NCBI GenBank assembly: GCA_017430145.1
Contig: JAFRNP010000171.1
Coordinates: forward strand, 1-34,882
Direction: 5' to 3'
DNA from: Clostridia bacterium
GTDB lineage: Bacteria > Bacillota > Clostridia > Oscillospirales > Acutalibacteraceae
DNA: 34,882 nucleotides
The first letter of the stretch is position 1; each line of letters opens with the position of its first letter. A program made the position numbers and the translations under genes. Shown here in pieces: positions 2,966 through 34,668 of this stretch. The notes under the pieces were generated by a model. That model worked only from the letters and a program-made list of their open reading frames with translations, had not been told where the DNA came from and ran no database searches.

Positions 2966-2994
2966 TTGACAATCCCCGGATTTTGTGATTTAAT
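2966..2994 (+). promoter_or_regulatory. main promoter of the T-box operon
   Basis: A perfect TTGACA (2966-2971), a 17-base spacer and TTTAAT (2989-2994) place the transcription start near 3001. That is just before the first bases of T-box stem I. Confidence 0.7.
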
Positions 2995-3000
2995 AGTCAC

Positions 3001-3263
3001 AATAAAAACGATGACGGAACTATGCTTCTTCGGGATCAGCTTCAGAGAGCCGGCGGTCGCTGCGAGCCGGTGCGTGAAGAGGAAGCAGTCTCCTTCCCGA
3101 GTTTGCCCTGTGAACCGACAGTAGCGGGGCACGGCAGCCCCGTTACCGGCAAAGGGCTTGATTGAGTCCGAAGAGTGTTCACCGGCCAGGTGAGAATCAG
3201 GGTGGTACCGCGGAAAAGTTTTTTCGTCCCTGCAGCCGTACGGCAGCAGGGGCTGTTTTGTTG
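3001..3263 (+). promoter_or_regulatory. T-box leader (tRNA-sensing riboswitch), probably leucine-specific
   Basis: The conserved T-box core GGGTGGTACCGCGG is at 3200-3213. Stem I can be folded from AAAC/GTTT at its base, a GATGAC/CGAG kink-turn, a GGAA/TTCC helix, and TGCTTC paired with GAAGCA above it. Aligned to well-known T-boxes, the three bases one position before the lower-stem TTCC are CTC (3090-3092), a leucine codon. The tRNA-end-binding UGGN has N = U, which pairs with discriminator A. That suits tRNA-Leu and tRNA-Val and argues against a Ser reading of the overlapping TCC. The base after CTC is C, where A is usual, so the specifier assignment is tentative. Uncharged tRNA should favour the antiterminator and expression of the two genes downstream. 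Confidence 0.88.
3228..3263 (+). terminator. T-box intrinsic terminator
   Basis: CCCTGC and GCAGGG (3228-3233 and 3246-3251) enclose an inner GCC/GGC stem around GTAC, followed by the T-rich tract GCTGTTTTGTTG. The 5' part overlaps the region needed for the T-box antiterminator, as expected for the alternative fold. Confidence 0.8.
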
Positions 3264-3301
3264 CCGCCGGGCAAAAAACGTGTAAAGAAGGAACGAACGA
3301 C

Positions 3302-4720
3302 ATGAACAGAGAGATCAGGATCAGCGACGTGACCATGCGGCAGTTGGAGACAACCGCCGATTTCAGCCTCAGCTTCCGGGAGAAGATCGAGCTTGCAAAG
3401 CTCCTCGACAAGCTGGGCGTTTGGGTGATCGAGCTGGAGGGCATCCGGCAGACGAAAGCGGACAGCCTGCGCGTAAAATCTATCGCCTCCGCCGTAAAGG
3501 ACAGCGAGGTGGCGGTGCCGGTGGCGCTGACCCGCGAGAGCGTGGAGACGGCGTGGAACGCGCTGAAGGACGCAAAGGCCCCCCGCCTGCAGGTGGCGGC
3601 GGCGGTGAGCCCCGTACAGATGGAATACATCTACCACAAAAAGCCGGACGCCATGCTGCAGGCGATCCGCGATACGGTGGCGGCGTGCCGCGAAAAGACC
3701 GAAAACGTGGAATTCATCGCCGAGGACGCGACCCGCAGCGACGAGGCGTTTCTGTATGCGGCGATCGGCGCCGCCGTGGAGGCGGGGGCTTCCACGGTGA
3801 CGCTGTGCGACGCGGCGGGCGCGATCTTGCCCGACGAATTTACGGCTTTTCTCCAGAAGACCCGCGCGGGCGCGCCTGCGCTGTCGGGCGTTAAGCTTGC
3901 CGTAAAATGCGCCGACGACCTGTCGATGGCGGACGCCTGTTCCATTGCGGCGGCGGGCGCCGGGGCGGACGAGATCAAGGCTGCCGCCTACCCTGTGGGC
4001 AGCGCGAATCTGAAAAACGTGGCGCGGGTGATCGCCCAGCGGGGCGAAAGCTTCGGCGCGGAAACCCGCGTGCGCACCGTCGCCATGGGACGCACCGTGC
4101 GGCAGATCGAGTGGCTTTGCCGCAATAACGGGAGCGCGCAGGGCAAGGGCTATATGGACGCCGACGGCACGGGCGAGCTGATCTTATCCGTCCACGACGA
4201 CGCCGAGGCGGTGGCGGCAGCCGCCGCGAAGCTGGGCTACGATTTAAGCGAAGAGGACTGCGCCGCCGTGTACGAGGCGTTTTGCCGCTTCGCGCAGGGC
4301 AAGGAGAAGATCGACGCCAGAGAACTGAACGTGATCGTGGCCACCGCCGCCATGCAGGTGCCGCCCACCTATACGGTGCGGCAGTATCTGGTCAGCGCCG
4401 GCAACCTGACCCACGCCATGGCGACGGTGGAGCTGAATAAGGGCGATGCGACGATCCGGGGCCTCGCGCCCGGCGACGGCCCCATCGACGCCGCGTTCCG
4501 CGCCGTGGAAAACGCCACCGGCTGCCGGTACGAGCTGGACGATTTTCAGGTCCGCGCCGTCACCGAGGGCCAGGAGGCGCTGGGCGAGTGCGTGGTGCGC
4601 CTGAGCGCGGACGGTAAGCTTTACTCCGGGCGCGGCATCTCCACCGACGTCGTGGAGGCGGCGGTGCACGCGTACCTGAACGCCATCAACAAGATCGTTT
4701 ATGAGGAGGCCGAGGCATGA
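3302..4720 (+). CDS. 2-isopropylmalate synthase-like protein with degenerate active site and intact LeuA regulatory domain
   Basis: This 472-residue protein follows the T-box. Residues about 4-270 are an HMGL-like TIM barrel and about 335-465 are the LeuA allosteric (leucine-binding) domain, with clear 'GDGPIDAAFRAV' and 'YSGRGISTDVVEA' motifs. In true isopropylmalate synthases the barrel starts DTTLRDGEQ and the metal is held by the Asp of RDG and by HxH. Here the first motif reads DVTMRQLET (Asp replaced by Q14) and the HCHND position reads KCADD (K202, A204), so all three metal ligands are gone. Catalysis of the acetyl-CoA condensation is therefore unlikely. A leucine-sensing or scaffold role is my inference. 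I recall similar degenerate paralogues in other Clostridia but could not search. Its stop overlaps the next start (ATGA), which implies translational coupling. Confidence 0.82.
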   Translation: MNREIRISDVTMRQLETTADFSLSFREKIELAKLLDKLGVWVIELEGIRQTKADSLRVKSIASAVKDSEVAVPVALTRESVETAWNALKDAKAPRLQVAAAVSPVQMEYIYHKKPDAMLQAIRDTVAACREKTENVEFIAEDATRSDEAFLYAAIGAAVEAGASTVTLCDAAGAILPDEFTAFLQKTRAGAPALSGVKLAVKCADDLSMADACSIAAAGAGADEIKAAAYPVGSANLKNVARVIAQRGESFGAETRVRTVAMGRTVRQIEWLCRNNGSAQGKGYMDADGTGELILSVHDDAEAVAAAAAKLGYDLSEEDCAAVYEAFCRFAQGKEKIDARELNVIVATAAMQVPPTYTVRQYLVSAGNLTHAMATVELNKGDATIRGLAPGDGPIDAAFRAVENATGCRYELDDFQVRAVTEGQEALGECVVRLSADGKLYSGRGISTDVVEAAVHAYLNAINKIVYEEAEA

Positions 4721-7191
4721 AGCTTTCCTATTCGACCCGCGGCTGGGAAGCCCTTTCCTGGGAGGAGCTGACCGATACCGCCGAAGAGATGCGGTTTGCC
4801 GGGATAGAGGTCTACAACGTCGGTAAAAACAGCGCGTTCACCCGCCGGGGCGGCGCGTTCCACAAATATAACGCGGCGGCGACCAGGCGGGACCTGAAGG
4901 AGAAGAAGCTCACGATCCCCTGCTTTGACACCTCCTTTGACGTCTCCGCCCCGGAGGCAGACCTGCAGCCGCTTTGGGACGTGATGGAGATCGCCGGGGA
5001 CGTGGGCTGCCCTTACGTGGCCGTGATCGCCCACACGCCCGGGGACGCCATCGCCGAAAACCTGGCGCGGATCCTGCCGGAGGCGGAAAAGCGGGAGATG
5101 TGCGTGCTGATCAAGACCACCGAGGCGTTTTCGGACACCGCGGCGCTCAGAGCGCTGTTAGACAGCTTTGCCAGCGACTACGCGGGCGCGCTGTGGGATA
5201 TGCACCACCCCTACCGGGACTGCAATGAGAGCGCCGATACCACCATCAAAAACCTCGGCGCGTACGTCAGGCACGTCCACCTCCGGGACTCCGACGACAA
5301 GGACACCTACAACCTGATCGGCGAGGGCACGCTGCCTGTTCCGGACATGATGCGCGCGCTCTCGTCCATCGACTACGACGGCTTCATTTCGCTGGAATGG
5401 AAGCCGGAGTGGATGGAGGACCTGCAGGACCGGGAGATCATCTTCCCGTATTTCGTCAACTACATGAACCGCTTCGAGAACACGCGGGGCAAAAAGAAAT
5501 CGCTGTATTTCAACCACGACGGTTCCGGGCAGTACGTCTGGAAAAAGGACGAGCTGATCAACCTGACCTTCCCGCAGGTGCTGGACCGCATGGTGGAGGA
5601 GTTCCCGGACCAGTACGCGTTCAAATACACGACCCTCGACTACACCCGCACCTACGAGGAGTTCCGGGAGGACGTGGACAACTTCGCCCGCGCCCTGGTC
5701 TCCATGGGCGTGAAGGCGGGCAGCAAAGTCTCCATCTGGGCCACCAACGTCCCCGCCTGGTACATCACCTTCTGGGCGGCGACCAAGATCGGCGCGGTTC
5801 TGGTGACGGTGAACACCGCCTACAAGATCCATGAGGCGGAGTATCTGTTCCGGCAGTCAGACACGCATACGCTCGTGATGATCGAGAGCTGCCTTGATTC
5901 CGATTACCGGAAGATCATCAACGAGCTGTGCCCCGAGATCGCCAAAAGCCGCCCGGGCGAGCCGCTGCACTGCAAGCGTCTGCCGTTTTTGCGCAACGTG
6001 ATCACCGTGGGCTTCCGCATGCCCGGCTGCCTGACCTTTGAGGAGGCCATGGACCGCGCGGATATGGTCCCGCCCGACCATATCAACCGGATGGCTTCGC
6101 GCGTGCGGCCCGACGACGTATGCAATATGCAGTACACCTCCGGCACCACGGGCTTCCCGAAGGGCGTGATGCTCACCCATTATAACGTAGTCAACAACGG
6201 CAAGTGCATCGGCGACCGCATGGGGCTGTCCACTGCGGACCGGATGATGATCCAGGTACCCATGTTCCACTGCTTCGGCATGGTGCTGAGCATGACCGCT
6301 TCTCTCACCCACGGCACAACGGTCAGTCCCCTGCCGTATTTCTCCGCCAAATCCTCCCTCGCCTGCATTGACAAGGAGCGCATCACCTGCTTCAACGGCG
6401 TGCCCACCATGTTCATCGCCATGTTCAACCATGCGGATTACCGCAAAACGGATTTCTCGCACATGCGCACCGGCATCATGGCGGGCGCAGGCTGCCCGCC
6501 GGAGCTGATGCGCCGCGCCGCCGAGGAAAACGAGATGCACATGACCGGCATCGTCAGCGTCTACGGGCAGACGGAATCCTCCCCGGGCTCCACCATGAGC
6601 GCATGGACGGACCCGCTGGACCTCCGGTGCGATACGGTGGGCTACGATTTTCCGCACGTACAGTGCAAGATCATCGACCCCGCCACCGGCGAGGAGCTGC
6701 CGGACGACGTGGACGGCGAGTTCTGCTCCCGCGGGTACAACACGATGAAGGGCTACTACAAAATGCCCGACGCCACCCGCGACACCGTGGACGCCGAGGG
6801 CTGGCTGCACTCCGGCGACCTTGCCCGCCGCGACAAAGACGGAAACTACCGGATCACCGGCAGGCTCAAGGATATGATCATCCGGGGCGGCGAGAACATT
6901 TACCCCAAGGAGATCGAGGAGTTCATCTACACCCACCCGGAGGTCCAGGACGTACAGGTCATCGGCGTGCCGGACAAACGCTACGGCGAGGAGGCGATGG
7001 CGTGCGTCATCCTGAAAACGCCGGGCGCCGTCACCGAGGAGGAGATGCGCGGGTTTATCGCCGCCAGCATGGCGCGGCACAAGGTACCCCGGTATATCCG
7101 GTTCGTCGAAAGCTTCCCGATGAACGCCGCCGGCAAGGTCCTGAAATACAAAATGCGGGAAGAAGCCGCAAAGGAACTGGGACTGACGTAA
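4717..7191 (+). CDS. fusion of sugar-phosphate isomerase/epimerase-type TIM barrel and AMP-forming acyl-CoA ligase
   Basis: This 824-residue protein has two parts. Residues 1 to about 255 resemble the xylose-isomerase-like TIM barrel (AP endonuclease 2 superfamily), with candidate metal ligands in WDMHHP, HVHLRDSDD and SLEW; the usual strand-5 Glu appears to be Thr (IKTT). Residues about 270-824 are an adenylate-forming ligase with complete motifs: YTSGTTGFPKG (phosphate loop), YGQTESSPG, GWLHSGDLA, GRLKDMIIRGGENIYPKE and a C-terminal catalytic Lys in AAGKVLK. The ligase should convert a carboxylic acid, ATP and CoA to acyl-CoA, AMP and pyrophosphate in the cytoplasm. Motif spacing is close to medium- or branched-chain fatty acyl-CoA synthetases, but the substrate is not readable. 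The start at 4717 overlaps the stop of the LeuA-like gene by four bases. Control is by the upstream T-box, so the substrate may be linked to leucine metabolism. Confidence 0.88.
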   Translation: MKLSYSTRGWEALSWEELTDTAEEMRFAGIEVYNVGKNSAFTRRGGAFHKYNAAATRRDLKEKKLTIPCFDTSFDVSAPEADLQPLWDVMEIAGDVGCPYVAVIAHTPGDAIAENLARILPEAEKREMCVLIKTTEAFSDTAALRALLDSFASDYAGALWDMHHPYRDCNESADTTIKNLGAYVRHVHLRDSDDKDTYNLIGEGTLPVPDMMRALSSIDYDGFISLEWKPEWMEDLQDREIIFPYFVNYMNRFENTRGKKKSLYFNHDGSGQYVWKKDELINLTFPQVLDRMVEEFPDQYAFKYTTLDYTRTYEEFREDVDNFARALVSMGVKAGSKVSIWATNVPAWYITFWAATKIGAVLVTVNTAYKIHEAEYLFRQSDTHTLVMIESCLDSDYRKIINELCPEIAKSRPGEPLHCKRLPFLRNVITVGFRMPGCLTFEEAMDRADMVPPDHINRMASRVRPDDVCNMQYTSGTTGFPKGVMLTHYNVVNNGKCIGDRMGLSTADRMMIQVPMFHCFGMVLSMTASLTHGTTVSPLPYFSAKSSLACIDKERITCFNGVPTMFIAMFNHADYRKTDFSHMRTGIMAGAGCPPELMRRAAEENEMHMTGIVSVYGQTESSPGSTMSAWTDPLDLRCDTVGYDFPHVQCKIIDPATGEELPDDVDGEFCSRGYNTMKGYYKMPDATRDTVDAEGWLHSGDLARRDKDGNYRITGRLKDMIIRGGENIYPKEIEEFIYTHPEVQDVQVIGVPDKRYGEEAMACVILKTPGAVTEEEMRGFIAASMARHKVPRYIRFVESFPMNAAGKVLKYKMREEAAKELGLT

Positions 7192-7194
7192 GAA

Positions 7195-7222
7195 CAGCGG
7201 GCTGTCGTGAGACAGCCCGCTG
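7195..7222 (+). terminator. strong hairpin at the end of the T-box operon
   Basis: A perfect 12-bp stem (CAGCGGGCTGTC with its complement) closes a GTGA loop four bases after the stop. Only a weak T-rich run (CTCTTATG) follows, so it may act as a terminator or as a 3'-end stabiliser. It also lies between convergent genes. Confidence 0.7.
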
Positions 7223-7362: not shown

Positions 7363-8784
7363 TTACGGGGCGGCGTATGCGCCGTCCCGGATCACGGCCA
7401 TCTGCGGGATTTTGGAGACGGCGCCGTTTTCGTCCCAGCGCATATCCTGACCGGTCAGGCCGTCATAGCCAAGGCTGCCCATCTGCGCCCGCAGGGCTTC
7501 GCAGATCTGAGAAGCGGACATATCGGCCGTACAACCGGCTTTCGTCAGCGCCGCGTACAGGATATATACCGCGTCGTACCCGTATGCGGAAAACATACCC
7601 GGCGTTTCACCGCCGTACGCCTGACGGTAGGCGGAAACGAACGCCTGCGCCCCCGGCGCGTCCTCAATGAAGGGAAATAGGATCATGACCCCCTCGGCAA
7701 GCGCGGGATCAAAACCTTCCGCCGTCAGGATACCGTCCATGCCGTCGACCCCGATACAGACGGGCGAATAGTTCATTTCGTGCGCCTGCCGGAGGATAAC
7801 GGCGGCTTCGGTATAGAATATCGGCAAAAACAGCACGTTGGCGCCTGCGGCTTTCGCATCGGAGAGCTGAACGGAAAAGTCGTTTGCGGTCTCGTTTGTA
7901 AAGGTCCCCTCGTAAGCGATATCGAGCCCCTTCGCCGCCGCCTCACGCACGAACGTATCGCGTATCGACATGGAATACGCGTCGGTATTATTATAGACCA
8001 CGGCGATCCGGCTGTCCGAAAAACGCCCGGGATCCGCCGCTAAATAATCGGCGCAGGCGGCGCCCTGTCCGGAATCGGTAAAGCAGACCTGATACATGTT
8101 TTCCGACCGGTCGATCACAGACGCATCGGAAGCGGTCGGCGTCAGGCAGAACAGCCCGTCTTCGTCCGCCCGTTCCGCCACGGCGATCGCGGGCCTGGTC
8201 GTCACGGGGCCGATCAGCGCCTGCATCCCCCACCCGGAGAGTCGCGCATAGGCGTCCGTCGCCTTTTCGGCGTCGTGCGAATCATCCAACGCCTGCAGCG
8301 CAAGCTGCACGCCGCCCAGAGCGTTCAGCTCCCGGATCGCAAGCTCCGCGCCCTTTCTGACGGCATTTCCGTAGATCGCCGCCGCGCCGGTCATCGGGCC
8401 GATCAGCCCGATTTTGAATGCGTCGGCCTGCGCCGGCTGCCGGGCGGACGCCCAGGTATACGGATCCTCCAGATCCACGCTCGCGCGCAATATCCGCCGC
8501 GCGTCCATCGCGGAGATCTCGCCGTCCGCGTCGGTATCCGCCGCCAGAAACGCGGCGGAACCGGCGGCATAGTTTTCCAGATCCACCGAGGCGCGCAGCG
8601 CCAAGCGCGCGTCCATGGCGGTAACATCGCCTCTCCCGTCCACGTCGCCGGGGCTCCACCAATCGCCCGCAGCGGCGGCAGGGCCGGGAACGGCGTCAAC
8701 GGACGCCGCGTTCCCCGTAAAGCAGAACAGAGTCAGACAAAAAACCGCCAGCAGGAACCGCGCGCGTGTTTTTGGTTTACACAT
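7363..8784 (-). CDS. periplasmic-binding protein (branched-chain amino acid/LivJ type) with N-terminal dockerin-type repeats
   Basis: This 473-residue protein starts at ATG 8784, eight bases after GGGGGGAGAA; an ATG 21 codons upstream lacks a ribosome site and would hide the signal peptide. A signal peptide (about 1-27) is followed by two dockerin-type repeats (about 46-106). Each repeat has a calcium-loop motif (GDVDGRGDV, ADTDADGEI) and the helix signature MDAR..LRASVDLE. From about 123 comes a type I periplasmic-binding fold with 'IGLIGPMTGAAAIYGN', the LivJ/receptor ligand-binding family signature, continuing to the end. I see no clear lipobox. No ABC permease or ATPase genes are near, so it may be a shared ligand-binding subunit or a surface-docked binder rather than part of a local transporter. 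A dockerin-type pair in this family is unusual. Confidence 0.85.
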   Translation of the reverse strand: MCKPKTRARFLLAVFCLTLFCFTGNAASVDAVPGPAAAAGDWWSPGDVDGRGDVTAMDARLALRASVDLENYAAGSAAFLAADTDADGEISAMDARRILRASVDLEDPYTWASARQPAQADAFKIGLIGPMTGAAAIYGNAVRKGAELAIRELNALGGVQLALQALDDSHDAEKATDAYARLSGWGMQALIGPVTTRPAIAVAERADEDGLFCLTPTASDASVIDRSENMYQVCFTDSGQGAACADYLAADPGRFSDSRIAVVYNNTDAYSMSIRDTFVREAAAKGLDIAYEGTFTNETANDFSVQLSDAKAAGANVLFLPIFYTEAAVILRQAHEMNYSPVCIGVDGMDGILTAEGFDPALAEGVMILFPFIEDAPGAQAFVSAYRQAYGGETPGMFSAYGYDAVYILYAALTKAGCTADMSASQICEALRAQMGSLGYDGLTGQDMRWDENGAVSKIPQMAVIRDGAYAAP

Positions 8785-8815
8785 ACAGTTTTCTCCCCCC
8801 TTTTTTACTGTTTTT

Positions 8816-8844
8816 ATACTAACACATATCAGACAAAAAAGCAA
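8816..8844 (-). promoter_or_regulatory. promoter of the dockerin/binding-protein gene
   Basis: Read on the minus strand, TTGCTT (8839-8844), a 17-base spacer and TAGTAT (8816-8821) form the promoter. The -35 and spacer lie within a tandem duplication. Confidence 0.6.
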
Positions 8845-8864
8845 CACATATCAGACAAAAAAGC
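8821..8864 (+). repeat. perfect 22-bp tandem duplication in a promoter
   Basis: Two identical adjacent 22-base copies (8821-8842 and 8843-8864) each begin AACACATATC and end AAAAAAGC. The downstream promoter of the minus-strand gene uses the junction of the copies, so the duplication repeats most of the -35/spacer region. Confidence 0.95.
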
Positions 8865-29833: not shown

Positions 29834-29982
29834 ACGGACGGAGCTGCGCGCCCCGTATGTGACGTTTTTTTCACGTTGCCGTCACTTTCTTTTCACTTTA
29901 CAGAAGTATACTGAAAATGTCATCACGGAACGGATCGTCATTTGCAAAACATCATAAAACTACACATTTTTTGTTAGAAACA
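29834..29982. other. gap between tandem terminators and protease promoter
   Basis: This AT-rich stretch is part of the 344-base gap 29696-30039. I see no gene, RNA motif or strong repeat in it. The frame of the protease is open upstream to 29917 but has no ribosome site there. Confidence 0.5.
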
Positions 29983-30011
29983 TTGATATTTTTTGTGAAT
30001 GATGATACAAT
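29983..30011 (+). promoter_or_regulatory. promoter of the C1A protease gene
   Basis: TTGATA (29983-29988), a 17-base spacer and TACAAT (30006-30011). This excludes the upstream ATG at 29917 as the start. Confidence 0.75.
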
Positions 30012-30039
30012 GACAGTACAACAGAAAAGGAGTTTGCTT

Positions 30040-33000
30040 ATGAAACGAACCAGACGTTTGCTTGCCCTTGTGCTCGGCGTTCTGCTGCTGATCCCGGGAA
30101 CGCCGCTGATCCTGCCGACTGGGGCGGCCGCCGCGACCGCCGCGTCGGATACGCCCGTCCCGCCCGCCGGGTACCATCTGACCGGCCGCACTTTTGACGA
30201 CGAAACCTACGGCACGCTGTATTACGTGTCGACAGAATCCTCGCCCGAAGGATGGGTGGACGGATACTGGATGACCGCCGACGGCAAACGCGCGGACAAA
30301 CGCGCCCTGCCGACGGATTTTGACGAGGAGACGGCAAACGCCAGGTCCGCCGACCTGCCCGCAGCATACGACGCGCGAGGCGACGGGCTGATCACGCCGG
30401 TGGAGAACCAGATCGGCGGGACCTGCTGGGCGCACGCCGCCGTCGCCTGCATGGAAGCGAATGCGATCAAGCAGGGGCTTGCGGATGCGAACGGGATCGA
30501 CTTTTCCGAATACCATATGCCGTGGTTCATCCGCAACGGACGGTATGAGAATGAGAGCAGTTCCGCCAACGACGGGGTGAACCAGGACCGCGACGAAATC
30601 CTTTCGGGCGGCAACTACGACGACGTGGAGCGGGCGGTCTATAACTTCAACGGCCCGGTTTACGAGGCAAGATTCCCGTTTGTCTCCACCGAAGAAGAAG
30701 ACCTGCTGGACGAGATGGAGAGCACCTTTACCTTCGCGGACAGATATTTATACGATTACGTCTGTACGCACGTCGTGCTGGTCGGCGATACCGTTGAGGC
30801 GATCAAGGCGGGCGTGCTGAAATACGGCGCGGTGCAGACCTCCTACTGGAACGACTATAATTACAGCTTCCCGACGGATACGGAGACCGGGGAACGGCTT
30901 TGCACGTTCTTTAAGCCGAACTCCGACCATACCACCCACGCAGTGACCGTTGTGGGGTGGGACGACAATTTCTCAAGGGACTACTTTACGTTGGCAAACC
31001 GGAAGCCTTCCGCCGACGGCGCGTTCCTGATCAAGAACTCCTGGGGCTCCGACTGGGGCTATATGGGCGGCTATTTCTGGCTGTCCTATGAAAATATCCA
31101 CGCTTCCAGCGTCGCCTATGAGGTCGCGCCCCGCGCCGATTTCGAAAACGTCTACCTTTACGACGGGCTCGGCTGCTCCGCCAATACGGGCGGCACAGGC
31201 TCCGCCAATATCTTTACGGCCGGCGGCGACGAATACCTGACGAAGGTCTCCCTCGGGAAGGCGACGAACGAATATACCTTCAGCATTTACAGGGACCTGC
31301 CCGAAAACGCCGCCTCCCCCGTCGAAGGCACGCTGGTGTACACGCAGAGCGGCAACGCGCACGGCGAACGCTGGATCGATGTGACCGGCGACGTGCCGTT
31401 TGCCTCCGGCGACCGCTTTTCAGTCGTGTTCACAGGGCTCAGCCGGGTCTATGTGGAATCCATCAACGGAAGCGCCGCATACCAGAGCAATCCCGGCGAA
31501 AGCTTTTACTGTACGGGGACCGTCTGGCACGACGCCCACGCAGGCGGGTATCACAACGTTGCCGTCCGCGCCGCGACGAAATCCGTTTCCGAAGGCCCCT
31601 ATACCGTTACGTATACCTGCCCCGGGTTCTATTCACAGCGCGTTAAGGCCGTCAACGGGACCGCGGCGCTGCCGCAGACGGAAGGCCATACCTGGGTGCT
31701 GACCTACAACGGCGCGCCCTTTAACGGGACGGGCATCAACCGGGATATGACGGTGGAGGCGCATTGTTACCCCACCGCCGGGCAGATCTCAAACGAAAAC
31801 CCCTGCACCACGGAATACCGCTGCATCTACTGCGGCGAAGAAAAGGCACCGGCAGCGGTCGAACACAGTTTTACCGACAGCCTGACCGCGCCCACGGCCA
31901 CCTGCCCCGGATACCGCACCCGCGTGTGCGGCGTCTGCGGCGAGACCGTATGGGACGAATATACGTTTGACGCCGGCGCCTCGGCGAGCGGGACCTTCGG
32001 TGGCTTCGGCTGGCAGATCGTAAACGGTGTGCTCGGCGTCGTCGGTCGCGGGGCGCTGCCGGATCTGGAAGCAAACGAAGCGGCGCCCTGGGCGGCATAC
32101 GCCGGGGAGATCACCGCGCTTGTTGTCAACGACGGTGTCACCGCCGTCGGCGCGCACGATTTTGCGGGTCTCACCGCCATGATGGAAATGGACCTGTGTG
32201 CAACGCTGACCGCCATCGGGCAGTACGCGTTTGACGGCGATACCGCGCTGACGGCATTCACGGCGCCGGTCAATCTGGTCAGCATCGGCAGCTACGCCTT
32301 TCGCAACACCACCTCCCTTGCCAGCGTCGATTTCGTCGGGCAGGTCAGGGATTTCGGCAAACAGGTCTTTTCAAACTGTGCGCTGACCGAAGCGGTGATC
32401 CCGGGCTCCTTCGTAACGGGCTCGGAGGAATACATATACTACAACTGCAGCCAGCTCAGAAAACTGACGGTCGAAGAGGGCGTTACACGGATCAACAACC
32501 GTCTGTGCCTGTGCAACAACCTGGAGGAGCTGAACCTGCCCGCCTCCATGACGTACATCCGGCCCTATGTGTATTCATACGGCATGCTGGAACTCAAGCG
32601 GGTGAACGTTGCGCCGGAGAACGCGGATTACTGCAGCGTGGACGGCGTGATGTACAACAAAGCAATGACGACGCTCTGCTTCCACCCGGCGGGCAACCCG
32701 GGCGACATGTTCACCGTCGGGGAAAACGTGACGGCGCTGACCAGTTACGCCTTTTCCAACTGCTGGTCGGTAGAGTATCTGGATATGTCCGCCTGCGGCG
32801 TCACAACGCTTACTTCCAGCGCGCTGTACTATATGCAGTGGCTGAAATACATCAATCTTCCGGTGGGGCTGACGAGCATCGGCAGCAACGCGCTGTACGG
32901 CAGCAACGCGGCAAAGATCTATATCCCCTCCACCGTCACGACGATCCAGGAAAGCGCTTTCAATAACCCCAGAGTCACGCCGACCTTCTACACCGACAGT

Positions 33001-34668
33001 GAGACCTCCGCCGCAAAGGCCTACGCCGACGCGCACGGTTACCCCTGCGTCGTACTGGAAGGGCACACGCACGACTATTCGACCGCCCTGAATACGGTGG
33101 CGCCCTCCTGCGCCGCCCCCGGCGCGGAGCTTGCCGTCTGCGAGTGCGGCTGTTTCCGGACGACGATCCTGCCGAAAAACGAAAACCACCAGAAAAACAG
33201 CAGTATCACCGTTGCGCCTACCTGCACAGACGACGGGCGCGTCTATTACGTCTGCACGGTCTGCGGCCGGGAGATCACCGAGCAGGTCCTGCCCGCATCG
33301 GGCCACACCTGGGAGTGGGTCGTCGATACCCCCGCGACCTGCGAACAGACGGGCGTACGGCATGAGGAATGTACCGTCTGTCACGAAAAACGCAATACCG
33401 GCGACGTGATCCCGCAGGGCGAACACAGTTTCACCGCCCAGACCGTCTCCGAAGACGCGCTGAGATCCGCCGCCACCTGTTCCGCCCCCGCCGTCTACTA
33501 CTACTCCTGCGCCGTCTGCGGCGCCGTGGAGCACAACGACGCGCATCTCTTTACCGTCGGCAGCGTAGCCGGCCACACCTGGGAATGGGTCGTCGACACC
33601 CCCGCCGACTGCGGGAACGCGGGCGTAAAGCACGAGGAGTGCGCCGTCTGCCATGTAAAACGCAATGAGAACACGCAGATCCCGGCGTCCGGCGAACACA
33701 GCTTCACCGCCCAAACCGTCTCCGAAGACACGCTGAGATCCGCCGCCACCTGTTCCGCCCCCGCCGCCTACTACTACTCCTGCGCCGTCTGCGGCGCCGT
33801 AGAACATAACGACGCGCATCTCTTTACCGTCGGCAGCGTAGCCGGCCACACCTGGGAATGGGTCGTCGACACCCCCGCCGACTGCGGGAACGCGGGCGTA
33901 AAACACGAGGAGTGCGCCGTCTGCCATGTAAAACGCAATGAGAACACACAGATCCCGGCGTCCGGCGAACACAGCTGGACCTGGGTCATCGACAGGCAGG
34001 CGACCTGCACGAGCGTCGGACAGAAGCATGAGGCATGCACCGTATGCAGAATGTCGAAGCGCGGCGTGGAGATCCCGATGGCGGACCATGCGCTGCAGAC
34101 CGTCCCGGCGAAGGCGGCGACCTGCACGGCGGCCGGCAACAGCGCCTACCGCGTCTGCGGGACCTGCGGCGGCTTCTTTGCGGCGGATTTCCTGACGCCG
34201 ATCGAAAAAGACAGCTGGGTCATCCCGGCAGCCGGACACCGCACTTCATACGTTGCGGCAAAATCGCCGACCTGTACGGCCGCCGGCAACACCGCGTACT
34301 GGCAGTGCGCCGACTGCGGCGCCCGCTTTGCGGAGGAAACCGCGCAAACGGCCCTGCGCGCAGCAGACGTCACGCTGGAAAAACTGCCCCATTCCTTTAC
34401 GGAAAGCGGCAGACAGGCGCCCACCTGCACGGCGGAGGGCTGGGTCGAATACACCTGCCAGAACGGCTGCGGCGAGGTCAAGCGGGAGAAGCTTGCGAAA
34501 ACCGCCCACACCGACGCCAACGGCGACGGCATCTGCGACGACTGCAAAACGGACCTGACTCCCAACAGGTGCAAATACTGCAACGAAGTCCACACGGGCT
34601 TCTTAGGCAAGATCATACAGATCTTCCACAATCTCCTGTATCTTTTGAAGAACCTATTCAAAAAATAA
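30040..34668 (+). CDS. secreted papain-family (C1A) protease with lectin-like, BspA leucine-rich and CxxC repeat domains
   Basis: Start ATG 30040 follows GAAAAGGAG, giving 1542 residues. A signal peptide spans about 1-31. The C1A protease domain (about 105-365) has Cys129 in IGGTCWAH, His300 in TTHAVTVVGWDD and Asn333 in IKNSWGSDWGY, so the triad is intact. A lectin-like domain of the type often joined to C1A proteases follows (about 366-510). Next come a first CxxC pair (about 590-640), BspA-type leucine-rich repeats (about 647-1005; 'LTAIGQYAFDG', 'LTSIGSNALYG') and a long run of CxxC ribbon-like repeats with HTWEWVVDTPA motifs (about 1006-1505). Two of these are near-identical 91-residue copies. 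The protein ends in CKYCNEVHTGFLGKI and a hydrophobic, lysine-ended tail (FHNLLYLLKNLFKK). No LPxTG is present. It is probably a cell-surface protease that binds host or food polymers. Confidence 0.9.
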   Translation: MKRTRRLLALVLGVLLLIPGTPLILPTGAAAATAASDTPVPPAGYHLTGRTFDDETYGTLYYVSTESSPEGWVDGYWMTADGKRADKRALPTDFDEETANARSADLPAAYDARGDGLITPVENQIGGTCWAHAAVACMEANAIKQGLADANGIDFSEYHMPWFIRNGRYENESSSANDGVNQDRDEILSGGNYDDVERAVYNFNGPVYEARFPFVSTEEEDLLDEMESTFTFADRYLYDYVCTHVVLVGDTVEAIKAGVLKYGAVQTSYWNDYNYSFPTDTETGERLCTFFKPNSDHTTHAVTVVGWDDNFSRDYFTLANRKPSADGAFLIKNSWGSDWGYMGGYFWLSYENIHASSVAYEVAPRADFENVYLYDGLGCSANTGGTGSANIFTAGGDEYLTKVSLGKATNEYTFSIYRDLPENAASPVEGTLVYTQSGNAHGERWIDVTGDVPFASGDRFSVVFTGLSRVYVESINGSAAYQSNPGESFYCTGTVWHDAHAGGYHNVAVRAATKSVSEGPYTVTYTCPGFYSQRVKAVNGTAALPQTEGHTWVLTYNGAPFNGTGINRDMTVEAHCYPTAGQISNENPCTTEYRCIYCGEEKAPAAVEHSFTDSLTAPTATCPGYRTRVCGVCGETVWDEYTFDAGASASGTFGGFGWQIVNGVLGVVGRGALPDLEANEAAPWAAYAGEITALVVNDGVTAVGAHDFAGLTAMMEMDLCATLTAIGQYAFDGDTALTAFTAPVNLVSIGSYAFRNTTSLASVDFVGQVRDFGKQVFSNCALTEAVIPGSFVTGSEEYIYYNCSQLRKLTVEEGVTRINNRLCLCNNLEELNLPASMTYIRPYVYSYGMLELKRVNVAPENADYCSVDGVMYNKAMTTLCFHPAGNPGDMFTVGENVTALTSYAFSNCWSVEYLDMSACGVTTLTSSALYYMQWLKYINLPVGLTSIGSNALYGSNAAKIYIPSTVTTIQESAFNNPRVTPTFYTDSETSAAKAYADAHGYPCVVLEGHTHDYSTALNTVAPSCAAPGAELAVCECGCFRTTILPKNENHQKNSSITVAPTCTDDGRVYYVCTVCGREITEQVLPASGHTWEWVVDTPATCEQTGVRHEECTVCHEKRNTGDVIPQGEHSFTAQTVSEDALRSAATCSAPAVYYYSCAVCGAVEHNDAHLFTVGSVAGHTWEWVVDTPADCGNAGVKHEECAVCHVKRNENTQIPASGEHSFTAQTVSEDTLRSAATCSAPAAYYYSCAVCGAVEHNDAHLFTVGSVAGHTWEWVVDTPADCGNAGVKHEECAVCHVKRNENTQIPASGEHSWTWVIDRQATCTSVGQKHEACTVCRMSKRGVEIPMADHALQTVPAKAATCTAAGNSAYRVCGTCGGFFAADFLTPIEKDSWVIPAAGHRTSYVAAKSPTCTAAGNTAYWQCADCGARFAEETAQTALRAADVTLEKLPHSFTESGRQAPTCTAEGWVEYTCQNGCGEVKREKLAKTAHTDANGDGICDDCKTDLTPNRCKYCNEVHTGFLGKIIQIFHNLLYLLKNLFKK
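33418..33963 (+). repeat. tandem 273-bp duplication inside the protease gene
   Basis: Copies at 33418-33690 and 33691-33963 are nearly identical in DNA, with a few mostly silent changes, and each encodes 91 residues starting GEHSFTAQTVSED. A third, diverged start of the unit follows at 33964 (GEHSWTWVID). Confidence 0.95.

Follow-up and report, generated by a model that had tools for sequence, protein, structure and literature searches.

A stretch of 34,882 nucleotides from a Clostridia bacterium of the Acutalibacteraceae (assembly GCA_017430145.1, contig JAFRNP010000171.1), hereafter called the window, carries on its + strand a pair of overlapping genes behind a T-box leader with a leucine specifier. 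The first gene, A, encodes a relative of the isopropylmalate synthase LeuA without its metal ligands, and the second, B, encodes a triosephosphate-isomerase-like (TIM) barrel fused to an acyl-coenzyme A (CoA) ligase. The features of the locus are as follows.

2966..2994, + strand: candidate promoter, TTGACA and TTTAAT separated by 17 nucleotides, read from the sequence.
3002..3234, + strand: T-box leader, matched by Rfam RF00230 with 111.8 bits (gathering score 93; E = 3.7e-24).
3090..3092, + strand: specifier codon CTC (leucine), in the register set by three other T-boxes of this genome, those of pheS, asnS and thrS.
3203..3206, + strand: antiterminator UGGN, here TGGT, from the Rfam match and direct reading.
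3228..3259, + strand: candidate terminator hairpin, CCCTGC...GCAGGG and a short T run, read directly from the sequence.
3302..4720, + strand: gene A, a LeuA-like pseudoenzyme of 472 amino acids lacking the Asp and both His metal ligands.
4313..4696, + strand: leucine regulatory (LeuA_dimer) domain of A, Pfam PF08502, residues 338-465, 101.1 bits.
4717..7191, + strand: gene B, a TIM-barrel/acyl-CoA ligase fusion of 824 amino acids, overlapping A by ATGA.
4717..5481, + strand: xylose-isomerase-like TIM domain of B, Pfam PF01261 (AP_endonuc_2), residues 22-231.
5584..7137, + strand: acyl-CoA ligase domains of B, AMP-binding at residues 290-681 and AMP-binding_C at 732-807.

Protein A is built of an HMGL-like barrel followed by the LeuA_dimer domain and falls under the cut-off of each isopropylmalate synthase model listed (best score 306.5 against 532; 277 against 598.7 for TIGR00973), while a control LeuA, at locus L153, passes the LeuA model with 833.5 bits. 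At the positions where this control has Asp, His and His, A has Gln14, Lys202 and Ala204, and alignments with PDB entries were also used in placing them. The loss extends over the family: among alignment rows with a residue at the position, the Asp was found in 0 of 107 (one has Glu), the first His in 0 of 109 and the second in 1 of 109, three rows having a gap at the Asp position and one at those of the histidines owing to cut contigs or extraction of the open reading frame (L026). The former catalytic positions vary freely, and conservation within the protein is highest in the leucine domain, with 43 of its 132 columns at least 95% conserved over 65 non-redundant rows, compared with 33 of 290 in the barrel and 7 of 50 in the linker. 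An earlier note on this DNA, made from the sequence alone, had described A as a LeuA paralogue that lacks all three metal ligands and retains the leucine domain, and both observations held. Since the ligands are lost, isopropylmalate synthase activity is unlikely, and A as a working synthase was rejected on these losses and the low model scores. It is hardly credible that A is still a synthase with an unusual metal site; the fold and leucine domain are kept and the own genome shows no other LeuA, but the ligand counts speak against it, and as most relatives bearing A show no leuC, an isopropylmalate product would have no use.

In the ligase of B all catalytic motif stretches looked for are present, and with the ATGA overlap and both AMP-binding domains they bear out what the note had said of a coupled two-domain partner with a complete acyl-CoA ligase. 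Its nearest family is PRK12583 (664.8 bits; cut-off 832), and NF047394, the model of the methylbutyryl-CoA synthetase MbcS (cut-off 850 bits), is not among its best 25 families, the 25th of which scores 237.2 bits. Counted as for A, the conserved columns of the ligase number 273 of 518 and those of the TIM domain 31 of 255. The metal quartet of xylose-isomerase-like proteins follows the pattern E-D-H-E; the putative quartet of the window's B reads K133, D161, H188 and E227, positions that were fixed by alignment with homologues from genomes lacking A. Glu136, once taken as the metal glutamate, was dropped because this alignment gives Lys133 there. The complete quartet was found in 24 of 109 TIM domains paired with A and in 9 of 9 without A. 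Almost all A proteins have thus lost the metal site, as have many of the TIM domains, and the ligase has stayed under strong selection.

Relatives of A were collected by a genome_contigs scan of 84,980 species, from which the best 80 of 159 were kept; with 29 loci from relatives and the locus of the window they give 110 A loci, or 99 after clustering at 95% identity. In all 110 the TIM domain of B comes next after A, on the same strand, and the ligase is missing in two, both at a contig end. From the stop of A to the start of B there are 30 nucleotides or fewer in 101 of the 110, with starts taken from the longest open reading frames, and the largest gap is 606. An architecture kept in all these loci, also after clustering, is more than chance, and chance linkage was accordingly rejected. 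The earlier note had named missing linkage in other genomes as an outcome that would speak against its reading, and the gene-neighbourhood survey found the opposite throughout. With LeuA (TIGR00973, NF002086; PDB 3ewb and 3rmj) protein A shares the barrel and the LeuA_dimer domain; it differs in its lost metal ligands, in scoring below the cut-offs and in this invariable pairing with a TIM-ligase. According to the record titles the carriers are mostly metagenomic Clostridia, many from the guts of ruminants and other herbivores, together with Coriobacteriaceae, Eggerthellaceae and one record labelled Bacteroidales. Cultured carriers include Hugonella massiliensis AT8 and Acetivibrio sp. MSJd-27, and leuC is retained in both. 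An A profile at E 1e-80 matched in 30 of 196 genomes of the class, two of which were taken as canonical LeuA, namely G216 (the control L153, 833.5 bits) and G047 (31-34% to the window protein). The other 28 matches span 13 families, and in the three loci opened among them (L152, L154 and L155) A is followed by B and lacks a complete metal site. Among the matches listed in the open-access literature, as judged from titles and the starts of abstracts, no account of the gene pair was found.

A T-box switches its genes on when its tRNA is uncharged, TGGT fits a tRNA with discriminator base A by the pairing rule, and the base after a specifier is usually a purine; in the window it is C. Five T-boxes were matched in the own genome, of which two exceed the Rfam gathering score. 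To calibrate the specifier register, the leaders before pheS (UUC), asnS (AAC) and thrS (ACC) were used; the three genes pass their NCBIfam cut-offs, although two of these three leaders lie under the gathering score (83.9 and 57.4 bits). A first specifier script assigned 84 leaders, 71 as leucine and 13 as others, in many cases after starting at a wrong AGAGA or GAG, and after inspection of its output and of printed leaders the rule was revised to demand the antiterminator core together with the first stem-paired GAG. Under the revised rule 79 of the 110 A loci gave a reading, with 73 CUC, 3 CUG and 3 glycine, while 27 gave none and 4 were too short. The glycine readings (L044, L045 and L109) were rejected as a wrong AGAGA start, the first script reading CTG, CTG and CTC, respectively; L008, L033, L035 and L067 were unread under the revised rule and CTC under the first. 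Clustering at 95% identity leaves 71 leaders, of which 67 have CUC, 2 have CUG and 2 are of the misread kind. The variable base of UGGN was U in 75 of 84 leaders, the other 9 being unresolved by the first script. The leader that the note had proposed as leucine-specific thus stands, over the gathering score and with CTC in the calibrated register, and whereas a leader answering to a tRNA outside the branched-chain amino acids would have spoken against the note's reading, the specifier was for leucine in 76 of the 79 leaders read, the other three being misread. A T-box survey states that specifiers agreed with the function of every verified gene (PMC2494555).

Around the leader, the consensus scan omits the candidate promoter because it requires an A as second base of the second hexamer, and gives two other candidates, both upstream of it. 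The terminator scan found an overlapping stem at 3240-3256, no better than shuffled sequence (1 found, 0.6 expected).

Taken together, the sequence evidence leads us to think, with fair confidence, that the pair opens the route from isovalerate to leucine by reductive carboxylation, and that A is a leucine-binding pseudoenzyme controlling B. Uncharged leucine tRNA would permit transcription of A and B through the T-box, and the ligase of B would convert isovalerate, ATP and CoA to isovaleryl-CoA. A 2-oxoacid:ferredoxin oxidoreductase of the VorB type, the genes of which are present, would then carboxylate isovaleryl-CoA to 2-ketoisocaproate, and a branched-chain aminotransferase, also encoded, would turn this into leucine. 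Protein A, an isopropylmalate synthase that has lost its metal site and kept a conserved leucine-binding domain, is probably a binding partner of B, with the TIM domain as the most likely contact, and would report leucine so that a plentiful supply stops the ATP-consuming step. Perhaps A is a sensor or a partner, a role that rests on conservation of the leucine domain, on linkage and on the loss of catalysis; the sensor role is the most interesting and the least proven part of the proposal. The chances seem to us evenly balanced for the fuller picture, in which a dead leucine enzyme was recruited as an allosteric leucine-sensing subunit on an unrelated leucine route and docked on a degenerate TIM barrel fused to an isovalerate-CoA ligase, as one arm of three in which each branched-chain acid ligase stands under the T-box of its own amino acid.

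The genomic setting was compared in 59 relatives, the own genome included, 30 of which have A. Read by length, with contig-edge fragments in G012, G015 and G020 classed as aconitase, a LeuC-length open reading frame occurs in 1 of the 30 relatives with A and in 17 of the 29 without (Fisher p = 2.6e-6; p between 0.003 and 0.014 when counted by genera). The VorB model is passed in 30 of 30 with A and in 17 of 29 without. The cut-off of ilvD is passed in 10 of the 30, so several genomes that bear the pair and are at least 95% complete have neither ilvD nor leuC. In the own genome, which is 86.6% complete, ilvD occurs twice, no other LeuA-domain protein and no leuC-length open reading frame were found, and on another contig a vorB-type korA and ilvE pass their cut-offs.

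In several relatives a same-strand cluster comprises a helix-turn-helix (HTH)-cupin-ligase gene, a P-loop ATPase gene, korA, korB, korC, ilvE, A, B and an amidohydrolase gene. The korABC-ilvE-A-B cluster was seen at L117, L118, L124, L034, L093, L099 and L152. At L093, korA passes the cut-off of '3-methyl-2-oxobutanoate dehydrogenase subunit VorB' and ilvE that of branched-chain aminotransferase. In Parasporobacterium (L043-L045) acetolactate synthase, ilvC, ilvD and an ilvE-cluster gene lie upstream (ilvB and ilvD checked in L043, ilvC in L045), and downstream lies a gene of the pyruvate:ferredoxin oxidoreductase cluster known from L033. Within the fetched flanks of 72 non-redundant loci, kor or nifJ genes were found in 15, ilvE in 9, leuC or leuD in 3, and PaaK or ACT genes in 6, one call of each of the last two kinds being checked. 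In five Eggerthellaceae loci leuC and/or leuD is near the pair (L039, L041, L042, L046 and L047), directly after B in L046.

It follows that the isovalerate and reductive-carboxylation part of the earlier note is supported, by neighbourhood, by the lack of leuC in most relatives with A and by the companion isoleucine and valine T-boxes described below, and is not proven. Nothing here fixes the acyl pocket of the ligase, and it may be that another leucine-related acid is activated, such as 2-ketoisocaproate, 2-isopropylmalate or 3-methylcrotonate, with the pair feeding a different step. Some Eggerthellaceae pairs near leuC, leuD and leuB fit such a substrate, as do two of those genomes with a second LeuA-domain open reading frame on the same contig, but the korABC and ilvE clusters, VorB in every relative with A and the missing leuC-length frame in 29 of 30 make it unlikely. 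Still less probable is a service in leucine breakdown or branched-chain lipid synthesis. In its favour, 2-oxoacid oxidoreductases can run either way, and MbcS of Staphylococcus aureus feeds lipids (PMC10026030); a T-box that is on when its tRNA is uncharged has the wrong logic for breakdown, however, and the same 29 of 30 genomes without leuC-length frames also speak against it.

Several observations weigh against the isovalerate-to-leucine reading. VorB genes are, as the counts above include, also found in 17 of 29 relatives without A, and in another collection 11 of 38 further genomes with A have leuC over its cut-off, which makes the pair more than a replacement. Kor or nifJ genes are near just 15 of the 72 non-redundant loci, and most, like the window, show none; the window pair has no oxidoreductase beside it, the kor cluster lying on another contig behind an isoleucine T-box. 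By the motif rule no T-box was found in the ten A loci of Coriobacteriaceae or Eggerthellaceae. Most of the genomes are, moreover, incomplete metagenome assemblies.

Also telling against an essential role of A are 12 of the 59 relatives that have no A but do have B or its ligase: a search with B (E 1e-150) gave 7 with the complete TIM-ligase fusion, and 5 more with a ligase that has no fused TIM domain. As B exists without A, A is not needed in every version of the system, although in G018, where B is a fragment at a contig end, A may simply be missing. A leucine T-box stands directly before the gene in six of these 12, by the script at L140, L141, L142, L146 and L147 and by the Rfam alignment at L145, which the script missed. 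At L149:285-7190 a leucine T-box starts a same-strand run of leuS, an unfused ligase and a separate TIM gene; the remaining five were assigned none. These leaders support a role of B tied to leucine and suggest that A is an added layer. A likely history is a ligase, then a ligase with a TIM protein, then their fusion, and finally the fusion with a dead LeuA, tied to leucine throughout.

The same loci bear on a tentative and rather doubtful alternative, in which B is a leucine-controlled isovalerate ligase and A is no sensor but a scaffold or chaperone, or else uses its old barrel to bind the acyl group or CoA. The 12 relatives without A, six with the gene directly behind a leucine T-box, are in keeping with it, and so is a weak co-variation of the TIM domain and the A barrel, the distances of which correlate beyond those of the ligase (partial rho 0.62), as would fit any physical partner. 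Best conservation in the leucine domain (43 of 132 columns against 33 of 290) would be odd for a mere scaffold, however, and the free variation of the old catalytic positions also counts against it. The reading of A as a leucine-binding controller of B is the one retained here.

Rumen bacteria make isoleucine from 2-methylbutyrate and valine from isobutyrate, and the pair would be the leucine member of a set in which MbcS-like HTH-cupin ligases behind isoleucine and valine T-boxes are presumably for those two acids. In the fetched loci, near-copies kept, 43 HTH-cupin-ligase genes were found, with leaders read by nearly the same rule as the revised one: 27 have AUC (isoleucine), 11 GUA or GUC (valine), 1 TCC (L116), 1 none, and 3 leaders were too short. 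An earlier count of 54 was discarded because cross-hits between the ligase part and B had inflated it. A tree of 41 of these ligases places the valine genes (L034, L079, L080, L088, L093, L094, L097, L099, L109, L125 and L128) on one side of a single branch with 100/100 support, and their T-boxes suggest that this clade holds isobutyrate-to-valine ligases. In the own genome an isoleucine (AUC) T-box at G000:C75:47627-47872, at 67.5 bits below the Rfam gathering score, leads an HTH-cupin-ligase gene, ilvE, a P-loop ATPase gene, korA, korB and korC (L138:6018-13542, - strand), the probable 2-methylbutyrate-to-isoleucine counterpart. For the one companion ligase scanned (L099) the best NCBIfam match was MbcS NF047394, at 447.7 bits against a cut-off of 850. 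The S. aureus MbcS is described as taking 2-methylbutyrate and isobutyrate and as poor with isovalerate (PMC10026030), which leaves isovalerate to another ligase, and the pair bears the leucine T-box. Like MbcS, B has an AMP-forming ligase, and the acids of MbcS are short and branched; unlike it, B's ligase is nearest another subfamily, PRK12583, and MbcS works poorly with isovalerate (PMC10026030).

Other known systems offer partial likenesses. HisZ, a dead paralogue of histidyl-tRNA synthetase, regulates HisG; it resembles A as a pseudoenzyme from the same amino acid serving as a regulatory partner, while the proteins are unrelated and the pathway is another. In Methanococcus maripaludis a set for the reductive carboxylation of aryl acids is reportedly composed of indolepyruvate oxidoreductase, PaaK and an ACT protein. 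It likewise joins a CoA ligase to a ferredoxin-linked oxidoreductase and makes an amino acid from an acid one carbon shorter, and PaaK-like or ACT genes are those seen near the pair in 6 of 72 loci, but its acids are aromatic and it has neither a LeuA-like subunit nor a TIM fusion. The formation of leucine in the rumen by carboxylation of isovalerate is established physiology since the 1960s, as given in PMC7356843 (citing Allison 1962 and 1966). The reaction sequence proposed here is the same; a difference is that the passages and listings consulted assign no genes and no leucine sensor to the activating step. If the proposal is true, genes would be put on the rumen isovalerate-to-leucine pathway, and leucine prototrophy would become predictable in genomes without leuABCD. 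What the locus family puts forward is an assignment of ligases to acids, a mode of regulation for each, and a pseudoenzyme as gauge of leucine.

Further genes recur near the pair or lie in the window. Behind B, 11 loci encode an Amidohydro_2 protein (cluster c3 at +2, in 14 loci altogether; for example L093:11861-12673), which might act on a related acid. A protein of 480 amino acids with ACT and metallo-beta-lactamase parts recurs near the pair at L066, L076, L080, L086, L095 and L098 (L066:14579-16024 checked). Adjoining the pair in the window, at 7363-8847 on the - strand, is a Peripla_BP_6 binding protein with an N-terminus that is dockerin-like by eye, and at 29917-34668 a protein of 1583 amino acids combines a papain-type peptidase, a lectin-like domain and BspA-type leucine-rich repeats.

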